The position numbers were made by a program, and so were the translations under genes. The notes under the pieces are model-generated. The model searched no databases and was not told the DNA's origin. It was given only the letters and a program-made list of their open reading frames with translations. A DNA stretch of 64,000 bases from Chloroflexota bacterium. GTDB lineage: Bacteria; Chloroflexota; Anaerolineae; UBA4142. This document shows, piece by piece, positions 7,276-23,086 of the stretch (positions are counted from its first letter, which is position 1; each line of letters starts with the position of its first letter). The stretch is taken from the NCBI GenBank assembly GCA_016219275.1, contig JACRBM010000013.1:1-64000 (forward strand), in the 5' to 3' direction.

Positions 7276-9198
7276 ATGAAACGATTCAATTTTACGTTCA
7301 CGCTGATGGCGCGTGTCATCCTGCTCGTTTCGATTGGCTTGCTCTTGATGTTCGGCGGATTTGCGTTTCTGAGTTTGGAAGCCGTGCGCGAAAGTACTGA
7401 TCGCGCGTTGCAAGAACGGATGCTTCTCGCGCAGATCACCGCCAGCCGCGTGGACGATTTGCTGCAACAAAAAATCACCTCGCTCCAAACCGTGCGGGAT
7501 GAATCCCCGTTCGACCCCAATCGCGACAATCCAGAAACGCTCGCGCCAATTCTCCATACCTTCGCGCAACACCTCGGCGATTTCGTACAGTACGTCGCGG
7601 TAACCGATCGCGAAGGGAATGTGATTCTATCCGAACCGTTGATGCCGGAACTGGTCGGCGCGAATGTGGCTTCGAATCGCTACGCCCAAAAAGTGCTCAA
7701 GACCGGTCAGCCGGTCGTGTCCGGTTATTTCGCGCCGGAAAAGGTAGAATCCACCGCGGCGATTTTGGTTTCCACTTCAAAAAACAATGGCACAACGAAT
7801 GGCGTCATCATCGCCGCGGTCAATCTCAAGCATCCCAGCATCAGTCATCTCCTCGGACCGTTAGGGCTGGGCAAACAGGGCTACGCCGAGATCGTAGATG
7901 AAGAAGGTTTTCCGCTCGCCAGCACATCGGAGGAACAATCGTGGCAGAACTGCCGCTATGGTGATCGCTTTGCCAGTTTGATTCGTGATCGCGGCACGGT
8001 GGTCGGGCAATGCCACGATTGTCACACCACATCGGCAACTCAGAAAAGACAAAACGGCGTGATGGCGTTTGCCGCGCTCACCACCGCGCCGTGGGGTATC
8101 GTCGTCCAACAAGATGAACGCGAGGCGTTCGCGTACACCAAAGAGTTGGAGCATAATCTGTCCTTGTTCGGCGGCGTCGCGTTTTTCATCACCCTCATCG
8201 TCGCGTGGCTCTTGACGCGCAGCGTGGTCAAGCCGGTCCAAACGTTGATCGCCGCCTCGCAACACATCGCGGCGGATGACTTGGCGCGACCGATTCCGCG
8301 CGTCGGCGGCGGCGAGGTGAGCATCCTGGGAGCGTCGCTGGACACTATGCGCGAGCGGCTGAAAAAATCCCTGGACGAGATCCAGGGATGGAATTCGGAA
8401 CTCGAACAACGCGTGGAATCGCGCACGCAAGAGTTGGAACAAGCCGAGCAAAGTCGCCGCGAGTTGTTACGCAAACTGGTCGTCGCGCAAGAAGAAGAGC
8501 GCCGCGGGTTGGCGCGCGAACTGCATGACGAAACGAGCCAGGCGTTGACCGCGCTCGTCGTCGGATTGGAGACCGCCACGACCGCGCCGGCGGAGTCGGT
8601 GGACGTGATGAAAGCGCGGCTGAATCCGATCAAGGCGATGGCGACCGCGATGCTGCGCGAAATTCAGCGCATCATCCACGACTTGCGCCCCGCGATCCTG
8701 GACGACCTGGGATTGGTGCAAGCGATAGATTGGTACGCGGAAACGCGCCTCAAAGTGCATGGCATTCAGGTCGGCTTTGAGACCGCGGGCGTCGAAAAAC
8801 GCTTGCCGTCCGAAGTCGAGACCGTCGTCTTTCGACTCGCGCAAGAAGCCATCAACAATATCGTGCGCCACGCTGGCGCAGAAGCGGTTAGCATCAGTCT
8901 GGAATTTGCGGACGATGCCGTTACGCTCGAAGTGGAAGACGACGGTTGTGGTTTCGATCCGGCAACCGCGCTATCCCCCGGAAAAGGGAATGCCACCTTT
9001 GGTCTCCTGGGAATGAAAGAACGCGCCGCTCTCTTTGGCGGAATCGTTAGCATCGAATCCAAGATTGAAGAGGGCACGAAAGTGACCGCCAAGATTCCGC
9101 TGAAAGGAACGAATGGGAATGGCAAAGATCCGAGTGTTGTTGGTGGACGATCACGCGATGTTGCGAGAAGGACTGAAGGCACTGCTCAGTCTGTGTGA
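7276..9198 (+). CDS. NarX-type sensor histidine kinase with a c-type heme motif in its sensor domain
   Basis: A 640-residue kinase. A first membrane helix (about 8-30) precedes a long extracytoplasmic domain (about 40-290) that resembles a double-Cache sensor. A second helix (296-318), HAMP, a coiled coil, a HisKA_3 H-box (ELHDETSQ, His417) and a HATPase with the N-box QEAINNIVRH follow. The sensor domain contains CHDCH at residues 246-250, a covalent heme c motif. Proximity to the membrane return suggests the domain reports redox state or a gas ligand. ATG 7276 has AAAGGA upstream, and earlier ATGs lack support. Its end overlaps the response regulator start by about 86 bases, so the pair is coupled. 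It probably controls the downstream reductive dehalogenase cluster (inference). Confidence 0.88.
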   Translation: MKRFNFTFTLMARVILLVSIGLLLMFGGFAFLSLEAVRESTDRALQERMLLAQITASRVDDLLQQKITSLQTVRDESPFDPNRDNPETLAPILHTFAQHLGDFVQYVAVTDREGNVILSEPLMPELVGANVASNRYAQKVLKTGQPVVSGYFAPEKVESTAAILVSTSKNNGTTNGVIIAAVNLKHPSISHLLGPLGLGKQGYAEIVDEEGFPLASTSEEQSWQNCRYGDRFASLIRDRGTVVGQCHDCHTTSATQKRQNGVMAFAALTTAPWGIVVQQDEREAFAYTKELEHNLSLFGGVAFFITLIVAWLLTRSVVKPVQTLIAASQHIAADDLARPIPRVGGGEVSILGASLDTMRERLKKSLDEIQGWNSELEQRVESRTQELEQAEQSRRELLRKLVVAQEEERRGLARELHDETSQALTALVVGLETATTAPAESVDVMKARLNPIKAMATAMLREIQRIIHDLRPAILDDLGLVQAIDWYAETRLKVHGIQVGFETAGVEKRLPSEVETVVFRLAQEAINNIVRHAGAEAVSISLEFADDAVTLEVEDDGCGFDPATALSPGKGNATFGLLGMKERAALFGGIVSIESKIEEGTKVTAKIPLKGTNGNGKDPSVVGGRSRDVARRTEGTAQSV

Positions 9199-9775
9199 AG
9201 ATGTTCAGGTGGTCGCCGAAGCATCCGACGGACGCCAGGCGCTCACGGCGGTGCGCGAACATTTACCCGATGTGGTGATCATGGATATGGCAATGCCGGG
9301 TATGGACGGCTTGGAAGCGACACGGCGCATCATCAGGGATCGTCCGGAAACCAAGATTCTCGTGTTGAGCCAACACGATAACGAGCGGTACGTGTTGCCA
9401 ATTCTCCAAGCCGGCGCGATGGGTTATGTGCTCAAGCGTTCGTTCGCCGGTGAGTTGGTCACCGCGATTCGGACGGTTTACCGGGGCGAGTCGTTCGTGC
9501 CGCCTTCCATTACCAAGATGTTGTTGGACAATTATCGCCAACACGCCGACAACGGTTCGGAAACGAGCGACGACGTACTGACCGAGCGAGAGAAGGAAGT
9601 CCTCAAACTCGTCGCCGAGGGACGCTCTAGTCAGGACATTGCCGAACTACTTGGTCTGAGCAAAAAAACCGTCATGTGCCACCGCGCGAATATCATGACC
9701 AAGCTAGGCATTCACAATCGCGCCAGTCTGGTCAAGTACGCCATCAGTCGCGGATTGATCGAGTTGGACGCGTGA
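9113..9775 (+). CDS. LuxR/NarL-family response regulator
   Basis: The receiver domain has the acidic pair in LLVDDHAML, the phospho-acceptor Asp58 in VIMDMAMPG and the conserved Lys in GYVLKRSF. A linker leads to a C-terminal LuxR helix-turn-helix (TEREKEVLKLVAEGRSSQ, then SKKTVMCHRANIM). The gene begins inside the end of the kinase gene; an alternative ATG at 9119 is equally possible because AAAGGA at 9103-9108 could serve either. It is the obvious partner of the upstream kinase. The natural candidate targets are the respiratory genes that follow on the same strand. Confidence 0.92.
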   Translation: MGMAKIRVLLVDDHAMLREGLKALLSLCEDVQVVAEASDGRQALTAVREHLPDVVIMDMAMPGMDGLEATRRIIRDRPETKILVLSQHDNERYVLPILQAGAMGYVLKRSFAGELVTAIRTVYRGESFVPPSITKMLLDNYRQHADNGSETSDDVLTEREKEVLKLVAEGRSSQDIAELLGLSKKTVMCHRANIMTKLGIHNRASLVKYAISRGLIELDA

Positions 9776-9782
9776 AACCCCA

Positions 9783-9806
9783 GGGAACGCTCGCCGAAGC
9801 GTTCCC
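9783..9806 (+). terminator. Stem-loop after the response regulator gene
   Basis: The inverted repeat GGGAACGCT (9783-9791) / AGCGTTCCC (9798-9806) starts seven bases after the stop codon. There is no T-run, so termination efficiency is doubtful. It is the same repeat type as at 3199-3222. Confidence 0.5.
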
Positions 9807-9930
9807 CATCCACCCCGCGCTACCGACCTCGCACGCAGGGAAAATCTAGGTACTGCCATCTCGAAAACTAGATACTTGTGCCGATTGATGCCACCGCCAG
9901 ATTGAGTTAAATTAACGGCAGGGAACTTAC

Positions 9931-10344
9931 GTGGCGAAATTGTTGCTGATTGAGCACAACAAGTCGTTAACCGCTTTGATCCAGCACGTATTGCGCGCAG
10001 ATCAAGGGTTGCAGTTAGTCGGGTGCGCGTCGAATGTTCACCAAGCGTTACAACTCCTCGCGACAACAACTCCGGACTTGATCCTGATAGATGCGCCGCT
10101 CCCCGACATTGGTTTTGCCGAGGTGATTCTGCTCGCGCTGGAAAGAGCGCCGACGAGTAAAATCATTCTGCTAGCGGACGATTGGGGCACGCGCTACTTG
10201 CGCGCCGCCATACGCTACGGCGTCAGTGGTTGCGTCAGAAAAGACCGGCTCGCCACCGACCTGATCCCGGTTGCCAAACGACTGCTCCACATCTCACTCG
10301 CGGAACACCAATACGCTCCCTTCGTCCGCGCCAAAAATAATTGA
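9931..10344 (+). CDS. Stand-alone receiver-domain protein, atypical acidic pocket
   Basis: A 137-residue CheY-like fold with no output domain. The Asp54 acceptor lies in LILIDAPLP and the conserved Lys in GCVRKDRL. The usual double-acid motif is replaced by Glu8-His9, and the Thr/Ser switch position in ILLADD is Ala. The start is GTG 9931 with a GGGAA box upstream. It sits between the two-component pair and the cytochrome gene. It could be a phosphate sink or an unphosphorylated protein-interaction module; the sequence does not decide. Confidence 0.7.
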   Translation: MAKLLLIEHNKSLTALIQHVLRADQGLQLVGCASNVHQALQLLATTTPDLILIDAPLPDIGFAEVILLALERAPTSKIILLADDWGTRYLRAAIRYGVSGCVRKDRLATDLIPVAKRLLHISLAEHQYAPFVRAKNN

Positions 10345-10403
10345 TGCACGTTAACCAACAACCTAAGTTAGTCCAATCTCACTGAGGAGATTTTAACCGC
10401 CCA

Positions 10404-10934
10404 ATGTACCAACGAAATCTGCTGAATCCAATATCCTTGATGTTCGTTCTACTGTTCGTGTCATTTGGTGTGATGGCTTGTCAACCCCAGCCCGTTGCCA
10501 CACCACTCCCGCCGCTCCCCACCGTCCTCGCGACAGAAACCAAACCGGCGCCAGCCCCTACCGTCGCGCCTAAAGTTGAGGCGACCAAACCCGTTGCCAA
10601 GCCCGGCGCGATCAAGACAGTCGAAGATATTATGAAGACTGCGCCCGTTTCTCAGTTCATGGATGGCAAACACGTCACGAAAGGGCTGCAGTGCACCGCT
10701 TGCCACACAGCGATGCCACCCAAAGGCGCGCCTGAAACCAAGACATGCTTGAGTTGCCACAAGAACACGTACACCGCGATGGCGGAGGTCACGGCGAAGG
10801 TAAGCCCAAACCCCCACTCCTCGCACGAAGGTGAAATTCCGTGCGTGGACTGTCACAAAGGGCACGAGCCATTCGTGTATGGATGTGGCAAAGCCGGATG
10901 TCACTCCGAGTACTCATCAAACCGTTTCAAGTAA
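10404..10934 (+). CDS. Multiheme c-type cytochrome lipoprotein (tetraheme)
   Basis: A lipoprotein signal peptide ends at Cys26 (lipobox VMAC), followed by a Pro/Ala/Thr-rich linker to about residue 68. The C-terminal 100 residues carry CTACH (97-101), CLSCH (115-119), CVDCH (147-151) and CGKAGCH (161-167, a CX4CH variant), so up to four hemes. Small size and spacing resemble the tetraheme domain of cytochrome c3-type/flavocytochrome c proteins. It should be tethered outside the membrane and pass electrons; the next genes offer a copper protein and the reductive dehalogenase as partners. The GAGGAG box is unusually far (14 bases) from ATG 10404. Confidence 0.85.
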   Translation: MYQRNLLNPISLMFVLLFVSFGVMACQPQPVATPLPPLPTVLATETKPAPAPTVAPKVEATKPVAKPGAIKTVEDIMKTAPVSQFMDGKHVTKGLQCTACHTAMPPKGAPETKTCLSCHKNTYTAMAEVTAKVSPNPHSSHEGEIPCVDCHKGHEPFVYGCGKAGCHSEYSSNRFK

Positions 10935-11030
10935 CTCTACCCTCGGATCGAAAGGAGTGGTCACAGCACAAGAACCGAACGCAAAACAATCGCCCACCAC
11001 GCAATGGGCAACATGGCAATCAGGAAATTG

Positions 11031-11047: not shown

Positions 11048-11050
11048 ATG

Positions 11051-11437
11051 ATGCGGAAATTGATTCTACTCGTTGCAGTTCTAGTTGTGACGATGCTGGT
11101 CGTCGCATGCGGCAGTTCCAAGCCTGCCGTGGTCATGGATGAACCAGTCCCTGCCGGCGCTGACGGCGCGCAAATTGTCAATCTGTCTTTCAATACAACC
11201 GACATTTCCCCGGCGACCGTGACCGTCAAAGCTGGACAAAAGGTACTCTTTGTCGTCAAGAACACTGATCCAAAAGAGGATCACAACGTCGTCAGCCAAG
11301 ATTTAGGCATCAAGGAAATTCTCGTCGTTCCCGGACAAACCGCGCGCCGCTTGTGGACGCCGACCGCCAAGCCAGGTGAGTACCCGACCGGTTGCACGAT
11401 TCACCCCGACATTCGGATGAAGATCGTCGTTCAGTGA
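11051..11437 (+). CDS. Plastocyanin-like blue copper lipoprotein (cupredoxin)
   Basis: The 128-residue protein has a lipobox ending at Cys20 and a single cupredoxin domain. Type-1 copper ligands are visible: His in KEDHNVV and the Cys-His-Met set in TGCTIHPDIRM. ATG 11051 is preferred over nearby ATGs because GGAGG at 11041-11045 is correctly spaced. The leader AAAAACCAATGGAGGTT recurs before rdhA. A lipid-anchored one-electron carrier next to a reductive dehalogenase gene suggests a role in feeding it electrons, which is an inference. Confidence 0.88.
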   Translation: MRKLILLVAVLVVTMLVVACGSSKPAVVMDEPVPAGADGAQIVNLSFNTTDISPATVTVKAGQKVLFVVKNTDPKEDHNVVSQDLGIKEILVVPGQTARRLWTPTAKPGEYPTGCTIHPDIRMKIVVQ

Positions 11438-11536: not shown

Positions 11537-12937
11537 ATGGCATCGAATTTAACCCGCCGAGAATTTTTGAAAGACCTCGGTTTGCTCGGCGCTGGTGTTA
11601 CGCTCGCCCCAGCCGCAATTAGCGGCGCCAACATTTTCGATTGGGACAACGAAAAGACGCCCCAGTTGCATCGCCCTAGCTGGGTGAACACATCCAGCTC
11701 ACCCACGATGGAAATTGACTGGGACAAGATGCAACGCTTTCGCGAGTGGCGCACGACGCGCGGCAGTTTCGCCGAATATGTGGGAAAGGAACGCGACGAG
11801 CGGTTGACCAAACTGCAAACCGAAAACTTGGATCGGTTCCTCAGGCAAAACAAACCGGGCTATACGCTCAAGGATCGCGCGCTCGGCGTGGCAACAGGAC
11901 AAGGCGCGGGCGCACAAGGGTTTCTGCCACCCAAAGACGCGACCACGCCAGACAAACTCGGCGTCGCAAAATGGACCGGCTCGCCGGAAGATGCGGCGAT
12001 CATGGTGACGGCGGCAATGCGCCACCTGGGCGCGGGCACCGTTGGCTTTGTGGAATTGGATTCGCGCACGACCGAGAAACTAATCTACGCCGAAGACCCG
12101 GACAAGAAAGTAATGGAAATCGCGGATGTGGCTCAACCGTCCGAGGACGACAAGAAACGCGTTATTCCGAAAAAAGCGCGCTGGGTGATTGTGTGGACCG
12201 TGCCGATGTCGCAAGAGACGATGAAAGCCGCGCCCACCGTGTTGTGCCAGCTCACCACCGGGTTGACCTACACGTTAAATCGCAGCATCCAATTGCGCTT
12301 GCAGTACTTTCTCGCCGGGTTGGGTTATCTGGGTCTGGGCGAAGCCAGCACGAACGCGCTCGGCATCTCGCCCGCGCTCGGCACGATGGCGGGCTTGGGT
12401 GAAATGTCGCGCTTGAATCGCTTGATCACACCCGAATGGGGTCCCATCACGCGCGTGTTCAAGATGGTCACCGACCTGCCGCTCGCGCCGACCAAACCGA
12501 TCAACGCCGGCATCATGCAGTTCTGCAAAGTCTGCAAAAAGTGCGCGGATTTTTGCCCGTCCAAGGCGTTGAGTTTCGACACCGAACCGACCTGGCAAAC
12601 GCGTGGCGGGTGGAACAACCCAGGACACAAGGCGTTCTTTGAAGATTCGACCAAGTGCCGCGCGTATTGGCGGCAGGTCGGCACGAACTGCGGTCTCTGC
12701 TTCACCGCGTGTCCGTTCGGCACCAAGAACCAAGCATTCTTCCACGAATTCCGCAACGCACTCGTCTCCGCGACGCCGGTCTTTGACAGCGCGCTCAAGG
12801 CGGTGGACGACTGGCTCAACCCAGGTCCCGCGAATCCGGAACTGGGCGATCCCTTCAAGAACCCGGAAGCGTGGTGGAAACGCACCGACTTGCCGATTTA
12901 CGGCATCAACACGTCTTCGGGTCTCAGTGACATCTAG
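11537..12937 (+). CDS. rdhA: Reductive dehalogenase catalytic subunit (RdhA), Tat-exported
   Basis: A 466-residue cobamide-dependent reductive dehalogenase. The Tat signal is LTRREFLKDLG at the N-terminus. The family's early motif EIDWDKMQRF, the central IVWTVPM segment and the NALGISPALG/LITPEWGP segment are all present. Two ferredoxin-type clusters follow: Cys330-333-336-340 (FCKVCKKCADFCP), then the remote Cys374 with Cys385-388-392 (CGLCFTACP). The family removes halogen from organohalides as a respiratory terminal step on the outer membrane face. ATG 11537 is set by GGAGG at 11527-11531. It is followed by the rdhB anchor gene after 12 bases. The substrate cannot be deduced from sequence. 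Confidence 0.95.
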   Translation: MASNLTRREFLKDLGLLGAGVTLAPAAISGANIFDWDNEKTPQLHRPSWVNTSSSPTMEIDWDKMQRFREWRTTRGSFAEYVGKERDERLTKLQTENLDRFLRQNKPGYTLKDRALGVATGQGAGAQGFLPPKDATTPDKLGVAKWTGSPEDAAIMVTAAMRHLGAGTVGFVELDSRTTEKLIYAEDPDKKVMEIADVAQPSEDDKKRVIPKKARWVIVWTVPMSQETMKAAPTVLCQLTTGLTYTLNRSIQLRLQYFLAGLGYLGLGEASTNALGISPALGTMAGLGEMSRLNRLITPEWGPITRVFKMVTDLPLAPTKPINAGIMQFCKVCKKCADFCPSKALSFDTEPTWQTRGGWNNPGHKAFFEDSTKCRAYWRQVGTNCGLCFTACPFGTKNQAFFHEFRNALVSATPVFDSALKAVDDWLNPGPANPELGDPFKNPEAWWKRTDLPIYGINTSSGLSDI

Positions 12938-12949: not shown

Positions 12950-13240
12950 ATGATGTGGCTTGTTACAGGTGTGATCATTGGCGTCGTGGGTTGGTGGCTC
13001 GTCTCCTGGACGCGCGCACACAAAATCGGCGTCACGTGGTACGAATGGTTGCTCGCCGTGCTCGCGCTCGGGCTAGGATTGCTCGCGCTCCAAAACTATT
13101 ACGCGTTCCTGAGAGAAATGGAACCGAATGCCGCTGTGGTGATGCTGGCGTTGTTGGGAGTGCCGGCGCTGATTCTAGCCGGGCTTGCCGTTTTTCTGGT
13201 GTGGTGGCAAGGACGCACAACCAAACCGACCAAAGCATGA
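12950..13240 (+). CDS. rdhB: Reductive dehalogenase membrane anchor (RdhB)
   Basis: A 96-residue protein with three predicted membrane helices (about 3-20, 30-48 and 62-86), and NYYAFLREMEPNAA between helices two and three. Size, topology and the Glu-Pro motif after helix two match RdhB anchors. It starts 12 bases after rdhA with GAGGAG at 12937-12942. The expected function is to hold exported RdhA at the outer face of the membrane. Confidence 0.9.
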   Translation: MMWLVTGVIIGVVGWWLVSWTRAHKIGVTWYEWLLAVLALGLGLLALQNYYAFLREMEPNAAVVMLALLGVPALILAGLAVFLVWWQGRTTKPTKA

Positions 13241-13256: not shown

Positions 13257-13290
13257 GAAGGTGCGGGCGTAACAACCCGCACCTTCGACT
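13257..13290 (+). terminator. Stem-loop after rdhB
   Basis: A perfect 11-base-pair stem GAAGGTGCGGG (13257-13267) / CCCGCACCTTC (13276-13286) with an eight-base loop, 16 bases after the rdhB stop. No long T-run follows. A related stem (GGTGCGGGC...GCCCGCATC) occurs at 21676-21699. Confidence 0.65.
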
Positions 13291-13413: not shown

Positions 13414-15501
13414 ATGAAGATAAAGCACTGGATCATTGCAATCAGCATTCTGATTCTCATCCTTCTCCCCGCCCCTGCCGTCTCGGTCGCCAAATCAAAT
13501 TCCAATCGCGTTTTCAATATCCGCGCGCGTTCATTCGAATACACGCCTTCGGTCATTCACGTTCAGCAAGGCGATCGCGTCAAGTTGACGATGACGGCGG
13601 ATGACGTGACGCACGGATTGATTCTCGATTATTACGATGTCGAACTCGTCGCCGCGCCGCGCCCAGAAAAAGAATCGAGCGTCGAATTTATCGCGGATCG
13701 CGCGGGCAAGTTTCGTTTTCGCTGCACCCAGGTGTGCGGTCCGCTCCATCCCTTCATGGTCGGCGAACTCATCGTCGAACCGAACGCGCTGGGCACGCTC
13801 TCATTCCCGCTGCTCCTGATTGTCGCCGGTGGCACGCTCGGTTTGTTGTGGGTCGGCAAAAGTCGTCCCGGCATGTTGCCCGAACAACCGTGGCGCTTTG
13901 AACTGACCAAGTTTCGCATCGTTCGCTGGTTTGTGGATCAACGCTGGTTTCAGTACTCGTTGATGTTACCGAATTTATTTTTCTTCGTCATCATCATGCT
14001 GGCGGCGTTCTTTGGCACGCCGGTCGGCAACGCAAATTTCGCCATCATCTTTGTGTGGATCGTGTGGTGGGCGGCGCTCAAATTGATCCTGATTCCATTG
14101 GGCGGTCGCTCGTGGTGCTCAATGTGTCCGATCCCCGCGCCCGGCGAATGGATTGATCACCGCGCGTTCATCAAAAAAGGAAACGAGAAACCGCTCGCCA
14201 TCGCGCGCAAGAATTGGCCCAAGCAACTCCGCAATCTCTGGACGCAGAACGCGACGTTTCTCGCCGTCGCATTGTTCAGCGCGATCATCCTGACGCGACC
14301 CTGGGCAACCGGCGTCGTCTTGCTCGCGTTTTTTATCGGGGCGATCATTCTCTCGTACGTGTACGGTCGGCGCATCTTTTGCCGGTACGTTTGCCCGGTC
14401 AGCGGATTCATCGCGCTCTACTCGATGGCAGCGCCGGTCGAAGTCCGCGTCAAAGACCCGGACCTTTGCCGCAAGCACGTCGAAAAAGATTGCGTGTGCG
14501 GAAACGAAAGCGGTTATGGTTGTCCGTGGATGGAATATCCCGGCAATCTAAAACGCAATGCGTACTGCGGTCTGTGCACCGAGTGTCTCAAGACCTGCCC
14601 GAAAAATAATGTCGGCTTGAACTTGCGTCCCTTTGGCAGCGACTTGTTTATCGCGCAAGGACGCGGCGTGGACGAAGTGTACAACGTCTTTATCATGCTC
14701 ACCTGCGCGATGGTTTACTCGGCAGTTTATCTCGGCTCGTGGGGCGTGCTCAAGGACTGGGCGAACATCGCGACGATTCCTGGGTTCTTGTTCTACACCG
14801 TACTCTTCCTCGCGGCGAACCTCGTCGTCGTGCCGGGCTTGTTCTATCTCGCGGTCTGGCTCGGCAAAGCGTGGGCAGACCAGCGCCTCCCCTCGCGCCA
14901 AGAGTCGCTAGCGATTTTGGAACCGCTCGCCCCGGTGCCGGGTCAAATCGCGCAATTCGTGCGCGGATTCGCGCGTCGCAGCAGACCGGCAATCGCTTCG
15001 CGCGCGATGGCAATCCAAGCGATGGACGCGCCCGTCCAACGCCCTGTTGCACTGACCCAGGTCGCGGTGGCATCACCGACGGTCGCGACGAAACCCGTCC
15101 AACCCAAGCCGGCTCCTGCCAGCGCGTTGCCGCCGCTCAAACAACTCTTTGTGGATTACGGTTATGCGCTCGCGCCGCTCGGCTTGACCGGTTGGATCGC
15201 GTTCACAGTGTCGTTCGCGCTGATTGATATTTCGTACGCCATCCCGCTCTTGTCCGATCCGTTCGGCTGGGGGTGGAATTTGTTCGGCACGGCGGGCACA
15301 CCCTGGATTCGTTTTATTCCGGAATGGGTGCCGTACATCCAAACGCCGATATTGTTGATCGGGATGGCGCTGTCCATCGTGACCGCGTACAAGATCATCG
15401 AGCAACGCGTCGCGGATAAAAAGCTCGCGTTCCAGAGCGTTTTGCCGGTCGTCGTCTTTATGGTCGTCGTCATGTTCGTGTTCTTCCAACTGTACGTGTA
15501 A
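13414..15501 (+). CDS. CuA-type cupredoxin fused to a NapH/NosR-like membrane polyferredoxin
   Basis: A 695-residue fusion. A signal peptide precedes a cupredoxin domain with a full binuclear CuA set: His67 (VTHG), Cys104, Cys108, His112 and Met115 in CTQVCGPLHPFM. Multiple membrane helices follow with CSMCPIPAPGE and CRYVCPVSG motifs, then a ferredoxin region (CRKHVEKDCVC, CGLCTECLKTCP). A Pro/Ala linker and further C-terminal helices close the protein. The membrane part resembles NapH and the NosR/RdhC core. ATG 14 kb inside the cluster (13414) has GAGGTGAT upstream. A role carrying electrons from quinol to external acceptors fits, but this exact fusion is unfamiliar to me. Confidence 0.8.
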   Translation: MKIKHWIIAISILILILLPAPAVSVAKSNSNRVFNIRARSFEYTPSVIHVQQGDRVKLTMTADDVTHGLILDYYDVELVAAPRPEKESSVEFIADRAGKFRFRCTQVCGPLHPFMVGELIVEPNALGTLSFPLLLIVAGGTLGLLWVGKSRPGMLPEQPWRFELTKFRIVRWFVDQRWFQYSLMLPNLFFFVIIMLAAFFGTPVGNANFAIIFVWIVWWAALKLILIPLGGRSWCSMCPIPAPGEWIDHRAFIKKGNEKPLAIARKNWPKQLRNLWTQNATFLAVALFSAIILTRPWATGVVLLAFFIGAIILSYVYGRRIFCRYVCPVSGFIALYSMAAPVEVRVKDPDLCRKHVEKDCVCGNESGYGCPWMEYPGNLKRNAYCGLCTECLKTCPKNNVGLNLRPFGSDLFIAQGRGVDEVYNVFIMLTCAMVYSAVYLGSWGVLKDWANIATIPGFLFYTVLFLAANLVVVPGLFYLAVWLGKAWADQRLPSRQESLAILEPLAPVPGQIAQFVRGFARRSRPAIASRAMAIQAMDAPVQRPVALTQVAVASPTVATKPVQPKPAPASALPPLKQLFVDYGYALAPLGLTGWIAFTVSFALIDISYAIPLLSDPFGWGWNLFGTAGTPWIRFIPEWVPYIQTPILLIGMALSIVTAYKIIEQRVADKKLAFQSVLPVVVFMVVVMFVFFQLYV

Positions 15502-15606: not shown

Positions 15607-16029
15607 ATGAAACAAATTTTGTTGATCCTGGGATTCATTTTGCTCGCGTTGGCGGCGTGTGCGCCGGGCAAATTCGCGGTGAGCGAACCCTGGGCGCGTC
15701 CCGCATTGGCGAACGGCACCGGCGCGGCGTACTTTGTCATCGAAAATCCGGCGGCACAGCCCGACGCGTTGATCAACGCGACAAGTGATGTCGCCGGGAT
15801 CGTCGAACTGCACAAGACGGTGATGGCGCAAGGCGACGTGATGCAAATGATGAAAATGGAACGCATCGTCATTCCCGCCAATAGCAAAACCGAATTCAAG
15901 CCCGGCGGTTCGCACATCATGCTCATCAACCTCAAACGGGAGCTCAAGACCGGCGATACCTTTGCGCTCACACTTCGATTTGAAAACGCGGGCGAAGTAG
16001 TTTTGCAAGTCAAGGTACAAGAAAGATAG
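15607..16029 (+). CDS. PCu(A)C copper chaperone lipoprotein
   Basis: A 140-residue lipoprotein (lipobox LAAC near residue 18). The domain opens with the family-typical VSEPWARPA, contains GAAYFVIEN, and has the copper-binding set ELHKTVMAQGDVMQMMKME plus a C-terminal GGSHIMLINL, giving the His/Met ligands of H(M)X10MX21HXM. PCuAC proteins deliver Cu(I) to CuA sites outside the membrane. The two CuA-like proteins encoded nearby (13414 and 19342) are the obvious clients. ATG 15607 begins the signal peptide. Confidence 0.9.
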   Translation: MKQILLILGFILLALAACAPGKFAVSEPWARPALANGTGAAYFVIENPAAQPDALINATSDVAGIVELHKTVMAQGDVMQMMKMERIVIPANSKTEFKPGGSHIMLINLKRELKTGDTFALTLRFENAGEVVLQVKVQER

Positions 16030-16133: not shown

Positions 16134-17339
16134 ATGAAACGATTGAGTCTCCCGTATCTCGTCATCCAAAATATCAAACGCCGACCGTATCGCACCGCCG
16201 CCATTGTTTTGTCGGTCGCCATCGCGATTGGCACGCTCTTTGCGATCACGCTGACGATGCGCGGCGTGCAGAACAGTTTGCAAGTTGGCTTGGCGCGCCT
16301 GGGCGCTGATCTGATCGTCGTGCCGCGCGGGCAACACGTCTCCGCGCAAGAAGCGTTCGTCGTTGGGCAACCCACGACGTTTTACATGAACCAAAGCGTA
16401 CAAGACCAGGTTGCCAAACTGCCAGGCGTGGAACGCGTCTCGTCCCAGGTTTTCGTCAAGACGTTGACGAACGCGAGTTGTTGCGTCGGCGAATTTTTTC
16501 TCGTCAGTTTCGACCCGCGCACTGATTTTACGATCTATCCGTGGCTCACGTCGCATCTCGAAGGACACACTCTGCGTTCCGACGAAATTCTCGTGGGCGA
16601 CCGCATCCTGTTGTTTCCCGGTGAGACCGCGCTCTTTTACGGCTCTGCTTTCAAAATCGTCGCCGTGTTGGAAGCAACCGGGATGGGCTTGGATCGCACT
16701 GTTTTCGTTCCGCTCGACGGCTTGCGCGAGATGATCGCGGCGTCACCCGAACGCGCCGAGCAAGCATTAACCATCGCGCCGAATCAAATCTCGACTGTCT
16801 TGGTGCGCGTGGAGCCGGGAACGGATCAGAACAACGTCGCCGAACTGATCGAAAGTAAAATTCCAGATGTCCAAGCGATCACCACATCGCGAATGACCTT
16901 CGCCGTCAATCAACAATTTTCCGGTTTACTCCAAATCATCTTCGTCGTCACCGCCAGTTTGTGGATCATGGCGCTCATCGTCATCGCGTTGATTTTCACT
17001 CTTAGCGTCAACGAACGCCAACGCGAACTGGGTCTCTTGCGCGCGATGGGCGCGCACAAGCGCTTCGTGCTTCGCCTCATCATCGGCGAAGCGATGCTAC
17101 TGACCGGACTCGGCGGAGTCATCGGATTGTGTGTGAGCGGCGCGCTCTTGTTAAGTTATCAAGGATTGCTCGAACAGCGTTTGCATATTCCATTTTTGCT
17201 TCCTTCCTGGTTCGATGCAACGATGTTGATTAGCGGATTGCTGGGGTTAGCCATCGTGTCGGGCGCAATCGCGTCGTTCCAGCCGGCGTTTCGCATCAGT
17301 CGCTTGGAGCCGTATGAAGCAGTTCGCCAGGGCAGTTAA
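16134..17339 (+). CDS. MacB/FtsX-type ABC transporter permease
   Basis: A 401-residue permease with an N-terminal membrane helix (TAAIVLSVAIAIGTLFAITL), a large extracytoplasmic MacB_PCD-like domain (about 45-255) and three C-terminal helices. The FtsX signature region contains NERQRELGLLRAMGAHK. It abuts the ATPase gene with no gap (TAA then GTG). Such pairs export lipoproteins, peptides or small molecules or drive mechanotransmission. Its position after a copper chaperone suggests a role in assembling the exported electron carriers, which is only a contextual inference. Two adjacent Cys (NASCCVGE) lie in the external domain. Confidence 0.85.
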   Translation: MKRLSLPYLVIQNIKRRPYRTAAIVLSVAIAIGTLFAITLTMRGVQNSLQVGLARLGADLIVVPRGQHVSAQEAFVVGQPTTFYMNQSVQDQVAKLPGVERVSSQVFVKTLTNASCCVGEFFLVSFDPRTDFTIYPWLTSHLEGHTLRSDEILVGDRILLFPGETALFYGSAFKIVAVLEATGMGLDRTVFVPLDGLREMIAASPERAEQALTIAPNQISTVLVRVEPGTDQNNVAELIESKIPDVQAITTSRMTFAVNQQFSGLLQIIFVVTASLWIMALIVIALIFTLSVNERQRELGLLRAMGAHKRFVLRLIIGEAMLLTGLGGVIGLCVSGALLLSYQGLLEQRLHIPFLLPSWFDATMLISGLLGLAIVSGAIASFQPAFRISRLEPYEAVRQGS

Positions 17340-18029
17340 GTGAACAACGTGATTTCACAATCGCAAATCAGTCTACATTCCGTCAGCAAACGTTACCGGC
17401 AAGGTGGCGTCATCGTCACCGCGCTCGACAACGTGAATTTGGAAATCCAGTCCGGCGATTTTCTCGTCATTACGGGACGCTCAGGCGTTGGCAAAACAAC
17501 TCTGCTCAGTGTCATCGGCGGACTGACGTTGCCGACCCAGGGCACGATCATGTTCAACGGCACAAACCTGGGAACGCTCGACGATGTTGCCTTGTCCGCA
17601 TTCCGCGCGCGCAAGATGGGATTCGTTTTCCAATTCGCCAGTATGTTGCCCACATTGACCGCGCAAGAAAATATCAGCGTTCCACTTTTATTTGCGAATG
17701 GAACCGGTAAACCTCAACGCGTTCCAGAACTATTGCGCCTCGTCGGGTTGGAGGATCGCGCGCATCACTATGCGGCGCAATTATCCGGCGGGCAACAGCG
17801 GCGCGTCGCGATTGCGCGCGCGTTGATCAATCAGCCGGCGGTCTTGCTCGCCGATGAACCGACCGGCGATTTGGATACGGATACGGAAAAGGAAATTCTT
17901 GAGATGTTGCGCGCCTTCAACCAACAAGGGATGACGATCATTCTCGTCACGCACAACCCAGAGTTGAGCGCGTACGGTAATCGGACTGTCCGCATGGAAC
18001 GCGGTAAACTCATCGAGGCGTCTCAATAA
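17340..18029 (+). CDS. LolD/MacB-type ABC transporter ATP-binding protein
   Basis: A 229-residue ATPase with Walker A GRSGVGKTT, Q-loop FVFQFASMLPTLT, signature LSGGQQRRVAIARAL, Walker B AVLLADEPTGDLD and H-loop LVTHNPE. The GTG start at 17340 directly follows the permease stop, so the two are translated together as one transporter. Confidence 0.92.
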   Translation: MNNVISQSQISLHSVSKRYRQGGVIVTALDNVNLEIQSGDFLVITGRSGVGKTTLLSVIGGLTLPTQGTIMFNGTNLGTLDDVALSAFRARKMGFVFQFASMLPTLTAQENISVPLLFANGTGKPQRVPELLRLVGLEDRAHHYAAQLSGGQQRRVAIARALINQPAVLLADEPTGDLDTDTEKEILEMLRAFNQQGMTIILVTHNPELSAYGNRTVRMERGKLIEASQ

Positions 18030-18060: not shown

Positions 18061-18204
18061 GTCATTGCGAGGAACGAAGCGACGAAGCAATCTACCTCTC
18101 CCAACCCTCCCCTTGCTAAGGGGAGGGCTAGGGTGGGGTTGGGGATTGCTTCAGGCACACCTGCCCTGGCGGGCGGTGCCAGGGAAAACCGCCCTCGCAA
18201 TGAC
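18061..18204. mobile_element. MITE-like repeat with 12-base terminal inverted repeats
   Basis: The element is bounded by GTCATTGCGAGG (18061-18072) and CCTCGCAATGAC (18193-18204), a perfect 12-base inverted repeat. Inside are GAAGCGACGAAGCAATCT, a palindromic CCCTCCCCTTgctAAGGGGAGGG block and CTGCCCTGGCGGGCGG. There is no coding capacity for a transposase. The GCAATGAC end contains the ATG used by the PQQ-repeat lipoprotein. Confidence 0.8.
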
Positions 18205-19312
18205 AGACAGGGTAGAGCGGTTACTAATTCTCATCACGCTTGGTTCGCTCGCCTGGTTCAGCGCGGGTTGCGCGTCCCAGGGACCGGTGTTGTGGACGTT
18301 CAAAACCGGACGCGATATTGCCGCCAGTCCTGCGATTGGCGCAAACGGCGCGATTTACTTTGGCTCGCACGATAATTTCTTTTACGCGCTAAATCCGAAC
18401 GGCACACTCAAATGGAAATTCGCGACGGGCGCATGGGTTCATGGTTCGCCGGCAATCGGCGAGGACGGCACGGTTTACTTTTCATCTTACGACGATTATC
18501 TTTACGCGATGACCGGCGACGGTCAACTCAAGTGGCGCGTGCGCTTGGAACGACAAATCGAATCCTCGCCCGCGCTCGGCGCGGATGGCACGATCTACAT
18601 CGGTGACGACGACAAGCAACTCTACGCGATTACACCGGACGGCAAGATCAAGTGGACATTCAAGACCGGCGATCTCGTCGTCGGATGTCCGTCCATCGGC
18701 AAAGATGGCACGATTTATTTTGGCTCCGGCGATAACTGGGTCTATGCGCTCAATCCAGATGGCAGCGTGAAATGGAAATTGGAAACGCGCGGACCGATTT
18801 ACTCGTCGCCCGCGATTGGAGCGGATGGAGTGATGTACATCGGGTCGAGTGATCGCGGGGTGTACGCGATCAACCCGAACGGGCAAACGCGTTGGCGTTA
18901 CGAAACCGACGACAAGGTGTACGCGTCACCCGCGCTCGGCGCGGACGGCACGGTCTACGTCGGTTCGCTCGATGGGCATCTGTACGCGCTCAACCCTGAT
19001 GGGACTCTGCAGTGGAAAACAAATTTCCGCGAATGGATTATCTCGTCGCCCGCGGTCGGGGCGGATGGCACGATTTATTTCGGCGCGTACACGCGCGCGT
19101 TGTACGCGGTGAATCCGAAAGGTCAGATGGTTTGGAAGTACGAAGCGGAGCGTTACATTTTTTCTTCACCCACACTTGCCGCCGACGGCACGTTGTACGT
19201 TGGCGCGGATGATGGAAAACTGTACGCGCTCAAGACAACGAGTACGGGCTTGGCAGCATCATCGTGGTCCAAGTTTCGCGGTGATGCGCGGAATTCCGGA
19301 CGGCATTATTAA
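18200..19312 (+). CDS. PQQ-repeat (BamB-like beta-propeller) lipoprotein
   Basis: About 370 residues: a signal peptide with lipobox FSAGC (Cys24), then roughly nine repeats of about 37 residues of the form ADGTIYxG...LYAxxPDGxxKW with recurring SPAIG/SPALG links. This is the PQQ-like propeller pattern. ATG 18200 begins a clean lipoprotein signal. An in-frame ATG at 18029 overlaps the ATPase stop, but its extra 57 codons are almost entirely repeat DNA. The start codon lies within the terminal inverted repeat of the MITE-like element. The function is unknown; it could be a scaffold for exported redox proteins. Confidence 0.8.
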   Translation: MTDRVERLLILITLGSLAWFSAGCASQGPVLWTFKTGRDIAASPAIGANGAIYFGSHDNFFYALNPNGTLKWKFATGAWVHGSPAIGEDGTVYFSSYDDYLYAMTGDGQLKWRVRLERQIESSPALGADGTIYIGDDDKQLYAITPDGKIKWTFKTGDLVVGCPSIGKDGTIYFGSGDNWVYALNPDGSVKWKLETRGPIYSSPAIGADGVMYIGSSDRGVYAINPNGQTRWRYETDDKVYASPALGADGTVYVGSLDGHLYALNPDGTLQWKTNFREWIISSPAVGADGTIYFGAYTRALYAVNPKGQMVWKYEAERYIFSSPTLAADGTLYVGADDGKLYALKTTSTGLAASSWSKFRGDARNSGRHY

Positions 19313-19341
19313 ACCCAGGTCGTCCCAGCAGGAGAATCCTC

Positions 19342-19728
19342 ATGAAAAAAGCAGAACTCATTGGCGCGGTCTTAATCTGGCTCGTTCTTCTTGGAACTCC
19401 CGCCGGCGTCTTTGCGTATCAGGCATATCGCGCCAACACGGCGGAATGCCAAACGATCAACATGCGAACGTACGAGAACGGGAATCCCTATCCCAGCCCC
19501 ATCCGCGTGAAAAAAGGGGAACCGGCGTGCATCAAATTGACAAGCGAGGATGTGACGCACGGGTTTATCATCAGCGATTTCAACGTCAACGCGGGAGAGA
19601 TTCACGCCGGCAAATGGACGACGATTGTATTCACGCCGACGGAATCGGGCACCTTCAACTATGTCTGCACGATTGTGTGCAGTCCGATGCACTCGCGGGT
19701 GCGCGGGCAGATCATCGTGGAGGATTGA
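19342..19728 (+). CDS. CuA-like cupredoxin (cytochrome oxidase subunit II-type domain)
   Basis: A 128-residue protein with one N-terminal signal or anchor helix and a cupredoxin domain. The CuA loop is CTIVCSPMH (Cys109, Cys113, His117), with His73 in VTHGF. The Met ligand expected three residues after the loop His is Val120, so the site may be a modified CuA or mononuclear. The Shine-Dalgarno AGGAGA precedes ATG 19342. It is a probable membrane-anchored electron carrier in the same system as the CuA fusion at 13414. Confidence 0.82.
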   Translation: MKKAELIGAVLIWLVLLGTPAGVFAYQAYRANTAECQTINMRTYENGNPYPSPIRVKKGEPACIKLTSEDVTHGFIISDFNVNAGEIHAGKWTTIVFTPTESGTFNYVCTIVCSPMHSRVRGQIIVED

Positions 19729-19815
19729 CTTTGCCTTGCGAAAGTTTGAAGGCGCCAACCCGCGTGAATCGAATTTTGCAACCTTCGCAGGATGGATCGA
19801 GTATGTGGAGGACTA

Positions 19816-20055: not shown

Positions 20056-20081
20056 GGCAATTGAAATTGTCGCGCGTGCAC

Positions 20082-20184
20082 GTAGGGGCGAAGCATTCGC
20101 AGAATGTTGATGCTTGGATAATCGTCCATCGAATGCGATGCGCCTGATTGATGAATCACCGTATGGCGAATGCTTCGCCCCTAC
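20082..20184. repeat. Inverted repeat with 19-base perfect arms (GTAGGGGCGAAGCATTCGC)
   Basis: The left arm at 20082-20100 and right arm at 20166-20184 are exact inverted copies, separated by 65 bases with partial internal symmetry. It fills the gap between the FmdB-like gene and the first NapG-like gene. Dispersed palindromes of this sort are typical non-autonomous repeats. Confidence 0.75.
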
Positions 20185-20208
20185 ACGCCCCTCTCACTGG
20201 AGATTGTG

Positions 20209-20805
20209 TTGTCAAATCATAATCAGCCGCTCAAAATGTCGCGGCGCGATTTTCTCAAATTAGCCGGCGGCGTTGCCGCATTCGGCTTTTCCGCGTTCGT
20301 CCTGGTTCCGCAACCGACCTTTCCGCGCGTGTTGCTTCCCGGCGCACTCCTACCCGCCGCGCGCTTTCAAGCCGCGTGTAATCGCTGCGGCAAATGCGCC
20401 GCCGTGTGTCCGCACGACGCGATTCGGCAAAGCGCGGATGGACTGCCGTACATTGATGGATTATCCGGTTGGTGCGATTTGTGTATGGATTGCGTCGAGG
20501 CGTGCCCGACCGGCGCGTTATTACCCGCCGATCCGCAACAGATCAAACTGGGTGTGGCAGAGATAGACCGCAACCGGTGTATCGCGTGGCTGACGGCTGG
20601 ATGTCGCCTCTGCTACGAAAAATGTACGAACCTCAAGCAAGCGATTACGATAGACCAAGATTTACGCACGTACGTTGACGAGTCGCGTTGCAATGGATGC
20701 GGCGCGTGCGTCAACGTTTGTCCCCAGCCCGACCGCTCAGGCGGAAACATCCGGGCGGGACGCGCCGTCGCCTTGAAAGTGAATCCGAATGATCCCCGAA
20801 CTTGA
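20209..20805 (+). CDS. NapG-like Tat-exported polyferredoxin, copy 1
   Basis: A 198-residue protein with a Tat signal (SRRDFLKLAGG) and four ferredoxin-type cysteine clusters: CNRCGKCAAVCP, CDLCMDCVEACP, the modified CRLCYEKC and CNGCGACVNVCP. It matches NapG/MauM. The first ATG (20236) sits right at the Tat motif, so the better start is probably TTG 20209, six bases after GGAG at 20199-20202. It overlaps the NapH-like gene by 17 bases. Probable role: an extracytoplasmic partner passing electrons from the NapH-like quinol oxidase to a terminal acceptor. Confidence 0.82.
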   Translation: MSNHNQPLKMSRRDFLKLAGGVAAFGFSAFVLVPQPTFPRVLLPGALLPAARFQAACNRCGKCAAVCPHDAIRQSADGLPYIDGLSGWCDLCMDCVEACPTGALLPADPQQIKLGVAEIDRNRCIAWLTAGCRLCYEKCTNLKQAITIDQDLRTYVDESRCNGCGACVNVCPQPDRSGGNIRAGRAVALKVNPNDPRT

Positions 20806-21601
20806 GCAACCGATTCAAGCCATCGCGCGTCCAGCAATCAAAAAACGCGCGCAACATGATACCTGGTCGAGATTTCGATTTGTCACAACCGTCAGCGCGA
20901 TCGTACTCATCGCGCTCGGCGCGGCGACGAATGTTAACATTGGCACGTTCTCGTCATTCAGTCTGGGTCCAGTCACGATTGCGTGTCCGCTCGGCGTCGC
21001 GCAAATAATGGCGGCGACGCAATCGTTCATCCCCGCGCTCGCACTCGCCGGACTTGCCGGTGTCTTGCTGACGATTTTGTTCGGGCGCGCGTTTTGCGGT
21101 TGGCTGTGTCCGGGACGGTGGCTGTTCAATCACTCGCCGCGCATGGCGAAACAAGGTTGGAAACATCGCGCGTGGGTGCAGAGCGGCGTCATCACCGGCG
21201 TGGTCGGTTTGGCATGGGTATTTCACAACCCGGTTTTTTGCATCATCTGCCCGGTCGGTTCGATTTGTCGCGGCGCGGTGGCGCTCGGTGGAGGTGGCAG
21301 TATCTTGCCCGCGCTGGGTTGGCTCAGCGCGCTACTCAGCGTCGAGTGGTTCAGCGGACGTTCGTGGTGTCGCGACCTGTGCCCGGTCGGCGCGACACTC
21401 AGTCGCATCAGCGCGCTGAATCCGTTCGTCAAAGTAAAAGCGGATTCGGAGAAATGTCGTCCGTGCTTGGCGTGTATGAAGAAATGCCCGGAGAGCGTCA
21501 ACCTCAGTCAAGCAACCGAGATGTCCACCTGCACAAAATGTTTCGCGTGCCAAGGCGTGTGCCCGCGCGATGCGGTTGAGATCAAACTCATCAACAAGTG
21601 A
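20789..21601 (+). CDS. NapH-like membrane quinol-oxidising polyferredoxin, copy 1
   Basis: A 270-residue protein with about four or five membrane helices. It has paired membrane-proximal motifs FCGWLCPGRW and FCIICPVGSICRG, a third WCRDLCPVGA and a C-terminal double [4Fe-4S] region (CRPCLACMKKCP and CTKCFACQGVCP). This is the NapH architecture. It overlaps the NapG-like gene, so the two are co-expressed. In nitrate-reducing bacteria NapGH transfers electrons from menaquinol or ubiquinol to the periplasm; here the acceptor is probably the heme and copper carriers. Confidence 0.87.
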   Translation: MIPELEQPIQAIARPAIKKRAQHDTWSRFRFVTTVSAIVLIALGAATNVNIGTFSSFSLGPVTIACPLGVAQIMAATQSFIPALALAGLAGVLLTILFGRAFCGWLCPGRWLFNHSPRMAKQGWKHRAWVQSGVITGVVGLAWVFHNPVFCIICPVGSICRGAVALGGGGSILPALGWLSALLSVEWFSGRSWCRDLCPVGATLSRISALNPFVKVKADSEKCRPCLACMKKCPESVNLSQATEMSTCTKCFACQGVCPRDAVEIKLINK

Positions 21602-21675
21602 ATAATTCACTGCGAAAATCACCCGGTAGAGTGGTGACACATAATTGGTTGCCGCGTATAATTCGCACAGAACAA

Positions 21676-21712
21676 GGTGCGGGCAATTCCGCCCGCATCT
21701 CTTTTATTTTGT
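21676..21712 (+). terminator. Intrinsic terminator between the two NapGH pairs
   Basis: The stem GGTGCGGGC (21676-21684) / GCCCGCATC (21691-21699), with one G-T pair, is followed by TCTTTTATTTTG. It would partly isolate the second NapGH pair from the first. Confidence 0.7.
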
Positions 21713-21729
21713 AAAGGTCCAGTCGTTGA

Positions 21730-22296
21730 ATGAACTCTAACGGATTTACCCGGCGTGAATTTCTCACGCTCGTCGGCGGCGCAACCGCGTTGAGTATTTC
21801 AGGTTTTATCCTGAACACCCAAACCGCGTCCGCCGATGTCCGACCACCCGGCGCACTCGCGCCCTACGAACTTTTTCGCGCGGCATGTGTGCGGTGCGGC
21901 AAATGTGTTTCCGCGTGTCCGCATCAATCCATTCGCCAAAACAGCGAACGGCTACCGTATATTGATGGCATAACCGGTTGGTGCGTTTTCTGTATGGACT
22001 GTGGCGTCGCGTGTCCGACCGGCGCGTTGCATCCGGTGGACCCGCATACGAGCAAACTAGGAACTGCCGTCATTGATCGGAATCGCTGTCTACCCTGGAC
22101 TCTATCCGAGTGCCATCAATGTTACGACAAGTGTGTTGGATTGCAGCAAGCGATCAAATTGGATTCGCAAAAACGTCCGTCAGTGGATGCGGCGCGTTGC
22201 AATGGCTGCGGCGCATGCGTGACCGCGTGTCCGCAATCGAATCGTGAAGGCAGGGGCAAGGAATTTGGAAAAGCAATTACACTCATCGCCGGTTGA
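21730..22296 (+). CDS. NapG-like Tat-exported polyferredoxin, copy 2
   Basis: A 188-residue paralogue of the protein at 20209. It has a Tat motif FTRREFLTLVGG, then clusters CVRCGKCVSACP, CVFCMDCGVACP, CHQCYDKC and CNGCGACVTACP in the same order and spacing. ATG 21730 gives a normal Tat signal. Its end overlaps the next gene by about 50 bases. Divergence from copy 1 is considerable, so the duplication is not recent, and the two pairs may serve different acceptors. Confidence 0.85.
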   Translation: MNSNGFTRREFLTLVGGATALSISGFILNTQTASADVRPPGALAPYELFRAACVRCGKCVSACPHQSIRQNSERLPYIDGITGWCVFCMDCGVACPTGALHPVDPHTSKLGTAVIDRNRCLPWTLSECHQCYDKCVGLQQAIKLDSQKRPSVDAARCNGCGACVTACPQSNREGRGKEFGKAITLIAG

Positions 22297-23086
22297 TCTC
22301 GCGCCTGCCGAACTTGTACGCTCCGTGCCTGCTCAAAAAACAGAGGCGCGAACGCGTTGGAGTTATTGGCGCGCGGGAATGACGATCTTGGCGCTAGCCG
22401 TCATCGCGTTCAGCGCGCATTGGAACCTGGGCTTGGGTACATTTTCGGTTTTTGGTTGGGGACCGCTTCGCATTGCTTGTCCACTTGGCGTGGCACAAAT
22501 CATCGCGGCAACCCAGACTATCGTTCCAACCCTGGCAATCGCCGGACTTGCCACAGTCATTTTGACGATGATCTTTGGTCGCGTGTTTTGTGGGTGGTTT
22601 TGTCCGGGACGCTGGCTTTTCAATCACGGACCGCGCACCGCGCAACAACCTTGGGCGGCGCGTGAATGGATTCAGGGCGGCATCATCGCAAGCGTGATCG
22701 GTTTATCGTACGTATTTCACAACCCGCTTTTTTGTATCATCTGTCCGGTCGGCTCGATTTGTCGCGGTGCGCTCGCAGTCAGCACAGGCGAAAGTCTGTT
22801 GCCTGCCTTCGGATGGCTCAGCGCGTTGGTCAGCGTCGAGTGGTTGAGCGGGCGCGCGTGGTGTCGCGATTTGTGTCCGGTCGGTGCGATGTACAGTCGC
22901 ATCAGCGCGTTGAATCCGTTTATCAAAGCCAAAGCCAATCCGGAAAAATGTCGTCCCTGTTTGGCGTGTATGAAAAAATGTCCAGAGGGGATGAACCTCA
23001 GCCAAACCAGCAACCTGTCCACGTGCACAAAATGTTTCGCGTGCGAATCCGCGTGTCCACGCGACGCCGTAGAAATCAAATTCTAA
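22244..23086 (+). CDS. NapH-like membrane polyferredoxin, copy 2
   Basis: A 280-residue paralogue of the protein at 20789, with FCGWFCPGRW, FCIICPVGSICRG, WCRDLCPVGA and the double cluster CRPCLACMKKCP/CTKCFACESACP. GTG 22244 is the longest start. TTG 22265, with an AAGGAA box just upstream, is a credible alternative and would shorten the overlap with the preceding gene. It is the last gene of the redox block and is followed by a strong terminator. Confidence 0.85.
   Translation: MKAGARNLEKQLHSSPVDLAPAELVRSVPAQKTEARTRWSYWRAGMTILALAVIAFSAHWNLGLGTFSVFGWGPLRIACPLGVAQIIAATQTIVPTLAIAGLATVILTMIFGRVFCGWFCPGRWLFNHGPRTAQQPWAAREWIQGGIIASVIGLSYVFHNPLFCIICPVGSICRGALAVSTGESLLPAFGWLSALVSVEWLSGRAWCRDLCPVGAMYSRISALNPFIKAKANPEKCRPCLACMKKCPEGMNLSQTSNLSTCTKCFACESACPRDAVEIKF

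Follow-up and report, generated by a model that had tools for sequence, protein, structure and literature searches.

A copper protein module adjoins reductive dehalogenase genes in uncultured Anaerolineae

Gene content of the block

The window analyzed here, a stretch of 64,000 nucleotides from a Chloroflexota bacterium (contig JACRBM010000013.1 of assembly GCA_016219275.1), contains a block of about 16 kb (7276 to 23086) that carries the reductive dehalogenase (RDase) genes rdhA and rdhB together with a set of copper protein genes. The block comprises 17 genes, all on the forward strand, which were checked gene by gene with Pfam, NCBIfam, and motifs. All of the genes named in an earlier note on this DNA are present, on the forward strand and close to where they had been placed, and the block additionally holds a kinase with a heme motif, two response regulators, an FtsX/MacB-type ATP-binding cassette (ABC) transporter, and a pyrroloquinoline quinone (PQQ)-type propeller protein. 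The features are as follows (TAT, twin-arginine translocation; FeS, iron-sulfur).

7276 to 9198, forward: sensor histidine kinase with dCache, HAMP, HisKA_3, and HATPase domains (Pfam)
9113 to 9775, forward: LuxR-type response regulator (Pfam Response_reg and GerE)
9931 to 10344, forward: stand-alone receiver-domain protein (Pfam)
10404 to 10934, forward: tetraheme cytochrome c3-like lipoprotein (PF14537; motifs and lipobox)
11048 to 11437, forward: type-1 (plastocyanin-like) cupredoxin lipoprotein (PF13473, 7e-18; ligands kept in relatives)
11537 to 12937, forward: RdhA, TAT-exported reductive dehalogenase (TIGR02486; active-site and FeS residues)
12950 to 13240, forward: RdhB membrane anchor with EXE motif (sequence and homologues)
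13257 to 13286, no strand: palindrome with a 12-bp stem, between rdhB and the CuA fusion gene
13414 to 15501, forward: N-terminal CuA domain fused to a NapH/NosR-like (Fer4_5) polyferredoxin membrane protein (Pfam, NCBIfam)
15607 to 16029, forward: PCuAC copper chaperone lipoprotein (PF04314, 1.6e-36)
16134 to 17339, forward: FtsX/MacB-type ABC permease (Pfam)
17340 to 18029, forward: ABC ATPase, LolD/MacB-like (NCBIfam)
18200 to 19312, forward: PQQ-type beta-propeller lipoprotein (PF13570/PF13360; start inferred from lipobox and homologues)
19342 to 19728, forward: second CuA-like protein, Val in place of the Met ligand
20170 to 20805, forward: NapG-like TAT-exported polyferredoxin, copy 1
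20789 to 21601, forward: NapH-like membrane ferredoxin, copy 1
21730 to 22296, forward: NapG-like polyferredoxin, copy 2 (local duplication)
22244 to 23086, forward: NapH-like membrane ferredoxin, copy 2 (local duplication)

The most probable start of the CuA fusion gene is 13414, and that of the propeller lipoprotein gene lies near 18200. The tetraheme lipoprotein has three CxxCH motifs and one CX4CH motif, which amounts to four hemes by motif count.

RdhA and RdhB

RdhA is, by its sequence, a true reductive dehalogenase. It scores 260 bits against TIGR02486 (cut-off, 160.35) and 100.6 bits against PF13486 (cut-off, 24.3) and carries the TAT motif TRREFLK. In an alignment with Sulfurospirillum PceA, the FeS cysteines and the equivalents of Tyr246, Asn272, and Arg305, the catalytic residues of PceA, are conserved, and Y245, N273, and R306 of RdhA are invariant in 12 homologues together with eight FeS cysteines forming two 4Fe-4S motifs. 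RdhB contains three hydrophobic segments; the EXE motif, which the PceA2B2 structure paper (PMC10624902) mentions, takes the form EME. Divergent RdhA-like ferredoxin proteins, 25 to 31% identical to the RdhA of the window, are encoded within rdh loci at L043:11923-13437 and L048:6303-7799, the L043 copy having no PF13486 match, and they are possibly accessory or degenerate forms of RdhA.

Copper proteins

The fusion protein combines PF13473/COX2 and Fer4_5 domains. At its N terminus, it matches the CuA domains of NosZ (profile E 8e-15) and ba3 oxidase, and the five CuA ligands (H68, C105, C109, H113, and M116, numbered from 13411) are invariant in ten homologues. The membrane core is polytopic, with the Fer4_5 domain and invariant CX2CP and CX3CP motifs at C236 and C324. 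Two structure models, one of them of RdhA, reached mean pLDDT (predicted local distance difference test) values of 47 and 54, which is low confidence and probably results from shallow alignments; the cupredoxin part of the first of these low-confidence models matched Thermus CuA in Foldseek with an E value of about 1e-3. The cupredoxin lipoprotein shows a plastocyanin-like C-x2-H-x4-M ligand pattern that is conserved in relatives. Two His and two Cys ligands of the second CuA-like protein are invariant, and the Met position is an invariant Val120. Because the Met ligand is Val, this protein is, as far as its ligands indicate, not a canonical CuA protein.

CuA sites receive their copper from PCuAC proteins. 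The PCuAC gene lies directly after the CuA-ferredoxin gene in the window and in related loci L054 and L055, and the same slot is occupied in L056, L057, L058, L059, L060, and L063 by a gene for a DUF4418 membrane protein, in which an RCHWT motif was seen in L057 and L059. The sharing of this slot suggests a role for DUF4418 in copper handling.

A degenerate nos cluster was considered and rejected. No match in the genome exceeds the NosZ cut-off (TIGR04246), the matches covering CuA/cupredoxin regions only, and the propeller has too few histidines for a CuZ site, as read by eye from the translation rather than computed.

Conservation of rdhA with the copper genes

A scan with an alignment of the fusion protein, covering one genome per species in 84,980 species, yielded 80 loci. 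Among them, seven loci other than the window (L054 to L059 and L063) have rdhA just upstream of the CuA-ferredoxin gene. As far as the contigs reach, they largely share the order rdhA, rdhB, CuA-ferredoxin, PCuAC or DUF4418, ABC permease, ATPase, propeller, and second CuA-like protein. A NapGH-like pair is found in most of the seven, on the upstream side in L055 and L056; none was detected in L063. These loci are all Anaerolineae, labelled Anaerolineales, Chloroflexi, and Candidatus Aquidulcis; they fall into at least two divergent sub-clades, with fusion proteins 53 to 82% identical to that of the window. Judging by the names of the isolates, the sources would be groundwater, mine water in Africa, the La Plata, the Black Sea, and Saanich Inlet. 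Three further loci (L060 to L062) are truncated on the upstream side. Upstream of rdhA, L057, L058, L059, and L063 carry a dedicated tatC gene and, in place of the tetraheme cytochrome of the window, encode a decaheme cytochrome of about 600 residues that includes a NapC/NirT domain.

CuA-linked membrane ferredoxins form a broad family, mostly without rdhA, to which the nearest relatives of the fusion protein belong. A membrane-core tree of 84 proteins placed the rdh-linked CuA-ferredoxins, including those of the window and L054 to L063, in one clade (SH-aLRT 95) with L183 as its sister. Among the 64 loci with at least 3 kb of upstream sequence, rdhA is present in all 7 of the clade loci and in 0 of the 57 loci outside the clade. 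In a sample of 20 genomes from the window's order, four have an rdh-type fusion, and each of these carries RdhA within 3 kb on the same contig. The earlier note had treated rdhAB as belonging with the copper genes and had proposed a search of Chloroflexota for conserved synteny; the search bears this out, with rdhA, CuA-ferredoxin, ABC transporter, and cupredoxin genes found together in the seven other loci, in one order and one clade, and with the flavin-type sister loci described below having no copper genes. Relatives that carry the CuA genes while rdhAB is inserted only in the window were not found in this clade, and a chance insertion of rdhAB beside copper genes is rejected by the synteny and clade analyses. 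A fusion of CuA and ferredoxin was also rejected as a unique mark of rdh clusters, as L184 and L185 are fused as well and the visible neighborhood of L184 has no rdhA.

The same genome holds an rdhA-free paralogous cluster (contig C60 of G000, about 59,700 to 63,050; L042:5699-9047) encoding a PCYCGC protein, a CuA protein, a Fer4_5 membrane protein, and a CuA-cytochrome c protein; its neighbors are a multicopper oxidase gene, a copper ATPase gene, and a kinase/regulator pair. Clusters of this kind are widespread and occur in Thermoflexus, Rokubacteria, Methylomirabilota, and Methanoperedens.

Flavin-type counterpart loci

Of 396 genomes sampled across the class, 13 encode an RdhA related to that of the window, 8 of them outside the window's family. 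The sister RdhA loci L175, L176, L178, L179, and L180, with RdhA about 50% identical, encode a protein with FMN_bind and Fer4_5 domains, which is the RdhC/PceC architecture, together with ApbE. The order in such loci, where the contig allows, is kinase, regulator, rdhA, sometimes rdhB, FMN_bind-Fer4_5 protein, and ApbE. Homologues of the last two proteins were found by tblastn in all five flavin-type loci tested, and FMN or ApbE homologues were found by tblastn in none of the copper loci. The copper and flavin modules are mutually exclusive at related rdhA loci. PF04205 (FMN_bind) likewise has no match in the fusion protein or in the window's genome, which is 97.9% complete, and matches in 4 of 14 control genomes. 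In the RdhA tree, the rdhB/CuA-linked RdhAs group with the G006 copies (support 84/63), and this group adjoins the RdhAs of the flavin mononucleotide (FMN)/ApbE type (100/99).

ApbE-type proteins attach the FMN of PceC in Desulfitobacterium (PMC5928378). Each type of locus thus appears to pair a membrane ferredoxin bearing a periplasmic redox domain with a cofactor inserter, FMN with ApbE in one and CuA with PCuAC in the other. The fusion protein aligns with the RdhC of the sister loci in the CXnCP ferredoxin region alone (E 0.012), and the two are not orthologous. The membrane cores are only remotely alike, and therefore the copper protein would have displaced RdhC rather than evolved from it. 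A simple domain swap inside one ancestral RdhC gene finds no support in the weakly aligning cores.

Proposed role of the copper module and electron flow

On balance, we lean slightly toward the reading that the copper module serves RdhAB in the place of RdhC. The block would then be a conserved organohalide-reduction cluster in which a copper module (the CuA-NapH/NosR-like ferredoxin fusion, the periplasmic cupredoxin, the second CuA-like protein, and PCuAC or DUF4418) replaced a flavin accessory module (the FMN-binding membrane protein RdhC and the FMN transferase ApbE), with the CuA-ferredoxin as the membrane redox partner of RdhAB. Several points weigh against this. The copper-linked RdhA clade is only moderately supported, and the marine-type loci L058, L059, and L063 hold a second rdhA that lies outside this clade and resembles the flavin clade. 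As the CuA-ferredoxin is not orthologous to RdhC, an equal slot does not prove an equal job, and the literature has yet to settle either the role of RdhC itself or the route of quinol electrons to the low-potential corrinoid of RDases (PMC5928378, PMC10624902). In G006, the contigs that carry rdhA stop ahead of the slot after rdhB, and nearly all of the relatives are metagenome-assembled genomes. Furthermore, rdhB and the fusion gene are separated by a 173-bp gap with a strong palindrome or hairpin that could split transcripts. A single transcript is not assured because of this hairpin and a terminator-like site after NapH1, ahead of NapG2; 441 bp also lie ahead of NapG1, and the reading of the block as one transcript is uncertain.

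The low-potential electrons for RdhAB would come from menaquinol at the RdhA/RdhB interface and, in addition, through the NapGH-like proteins and c3-type hemes. In the PceA2B2 structure, menaquinone lies at this interface, and menaquinol can be bound directly (PMC10624902); in Sulfurospirillum, a NapGH-like dehydrogenase is the favored link to the RDase (PMC4585668). The window encodes both candidate routes (RdhB/menaquinol and NapGH-like) and the tetraheme cytochrome, and all three are plausible donors to RdhA. UbiA, taken as a marker of quinone synthesis, had four matches, but the family is too general to prove menaquinone.

CuA and type-1 copper sites normally lie at high positive potential, near +200 to +400 mV. 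Because of this high potential, the copper arm is tentatively suggested to draw off electrons or to poise the system, in corrinoid activation or a high-potential branch of quinol oxidation, rather than to feed cobalamin directly. It could act as the sink in a quinol bifurcation, as a partner that activates or poises RdhA, or as a protective path toward the genome's two heme-copper oxidases. The direction of electron flow is the shakiest and least certain step of this proposal.

Three other explanations were weighed. The copper genes are unlikely to be mere co-regulated neighbors, engaged in copper handling, oxygen protection, or another respiratory enzyme and exchanging no electrons with RdhAB. 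CuA/ferredoxin/CuA-cytochrome c homologues are widespread in the absence of rdhA, frequently accompanied by copper ATPases, a PCYCGC protein, and a kinase/regulator pair. This would fit such a role, as would the rdhA-free paralogous cluster of the same genome, but the rdh-linked version is a clade of its own with rdhA directly upstream wherever this is visible, and the copper set excludes the flavin module.

Rather improbable is a bifurcation of quinol electrons by the membrane ferredoxin, with one electron passing to CuA and the cupredoxin (and on to the heme-copper oxidases or another sink) and one through FeS clusters to RdhA. FeS and CuA sites are joined in one chain in the fusion protein, and the oxidases could receive the high-potential electron. 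Such a mechanism would close the redox gap and has been proposed for the flavin protein RdhC (PMC5928378), but it requires a putative quinol site, the cluster shows no protein of the flavin, Rieske, or cytochrome b type, and the direct oxidation of menaquinol by PceA2B2 makes splitting unnecessary in at least one genus (PMC10624902). The fuller version, in which organohalide respiration here would be copper dependent, with the CuA-ferredoxin sending high-potential quinol electrons through CuA and the cupredoxin and low-potential ones to RdhA and with copper replacing flavin in bridging the redox gap, is quite doubtful.

The linear path of the earlier note, from quinol through NapGH and CuA/cytochrome to RdhA with copper as the obligate direct donor, is not supported as written and is very unlikely. 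It would suit the conserved co-localization of rdhAB, the CuA fusion, and the NapGH-like genes and the function of CuA as the site of electron entry in NosZ and cytochrome oxidase, to which the CuA domain here is closest. A direct step from copper to RdhA is nonetheless unlikely because copper sites are far more positive, and electrons would have to climb some 600 mV to the Co(II)/FeS centers. The Co(II)/Co(I) couple lies at about -350 mV and the FeS clusters at about -480 mV, compared with -74 mV for menaquinone, from which RdhA/RdhB can take electrons directly; organohalide reduction is favorable overall (+240 to +580 mV), and uphill steps inside a chain are not excluded by the same work (PMC10624902).

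Relation to known systems

The rdhABC clusters with RdhC/PceC and ApbE of Desulfitobacterium, Dehalobacter, and the FMN/ApbE-type Anaerolineae loci share with the window a TAT-exported RdhA, a three-helix RdhB with EXE, a CXnCP membrane protein beside rdhAB, and nearby regulators; the window differs in having no FMN-binding domain or ApbE and in having the CuA domain, the cupredoxin, PCuAC/DUF4418, the ABC transporter, and the propeller. The organohalide respiration region of Sulfurospirillum multivorans likewise has NapGH-type genes beside RDase genes, but copper carriers are not named there, and the word copper is absent from PMC4585668. The NosR/NapH membrane ferredoxins have the same polyferredoxin membrane core, and NosZ and subunit II of ba3 oxidase have the closest CuA domain; unlike NosR and NosZ, the window has no FMN domain and no CuZ propeller. 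The rdhA-less clusters of Thermoflexus, Methylomirabilota, Rokubacteria, and Methanoperedens contain a homologous CuA domain and membrane ferredoxin, a neighboring CuA protein, and often a kinase/regulator pair but have no rdhA, and their CuA and ferredoxin genes are usually split.

The earlier note had regarded NapGH beside an RDase and rdhA outside the classical genera as new. Both are already known: a NapGH-like quinol dehydrogenase adjoins an RDase in Desulforhopalus (PMC12908670) as well as in Sulfurospirillum multivorans (PMC4585668), and for Anaerolineales an rdhA gene has been described (PMC4959059). The open-licence literature yielded nothing relevant on an RDase with plastocyanin, cupredoxin, or CuA, an earlier description elsewhere being possible, and a conserved copper module beside rdhAB that excludes the flavin module appears undescribed within those papers. 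A copper module where others keep a flavin module is a natural exchange experiment, in which the shared traits likely mark the essential job. Organohalide respiration may use copper in these uncultured Chloroflexota; dehalogenation in groundwater and in oxygen-deficient marine waters would then be expected to depend on copper. The adjacency of rdhA and a CuA-ferredoxin gene provides a searchable signature.

NapGH-like genes, intergenic elements, and the kinase

The curated NapG and NapH models are the best matches of the genes at the end of the block but remain below their cut-offs (e.g., 75 versus 269 bits and 83 versus 213 bits), and the products are by this measure NapGH-like rather than NapGH proper. 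The two pairs are about 69% identical in DNA over 300 nt and look like a local tandem duplication; relatives have one pair. Each pair is followed by a promoter-like site, at 21634 to 21662 and 23131 to 23159, and the two sites have the same hexamers and spacing (GTGACA-17-TATAAT), which is consistent with a tandem duplication of the entire NapGH unit. The palindromes at 13257 to 13286 and 21675 to 21700 are related (AGGTGCGGG...CCCGCAYCT), with zero such occurrences expected by chance in the window, and may be a repeated regulatory or REP-like (repetitive extragenic palindromic) element.

Between its dCache and HAMP regions, the kinase at the start of the block has a single heme c motif (CxxCH), which suggests a heme-c redox or gas sensor governing the cluster. 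A homologue of this kinase, 62 to 73% identical, adjoins rdhA in the G001, G006, G008, and G012 loci.

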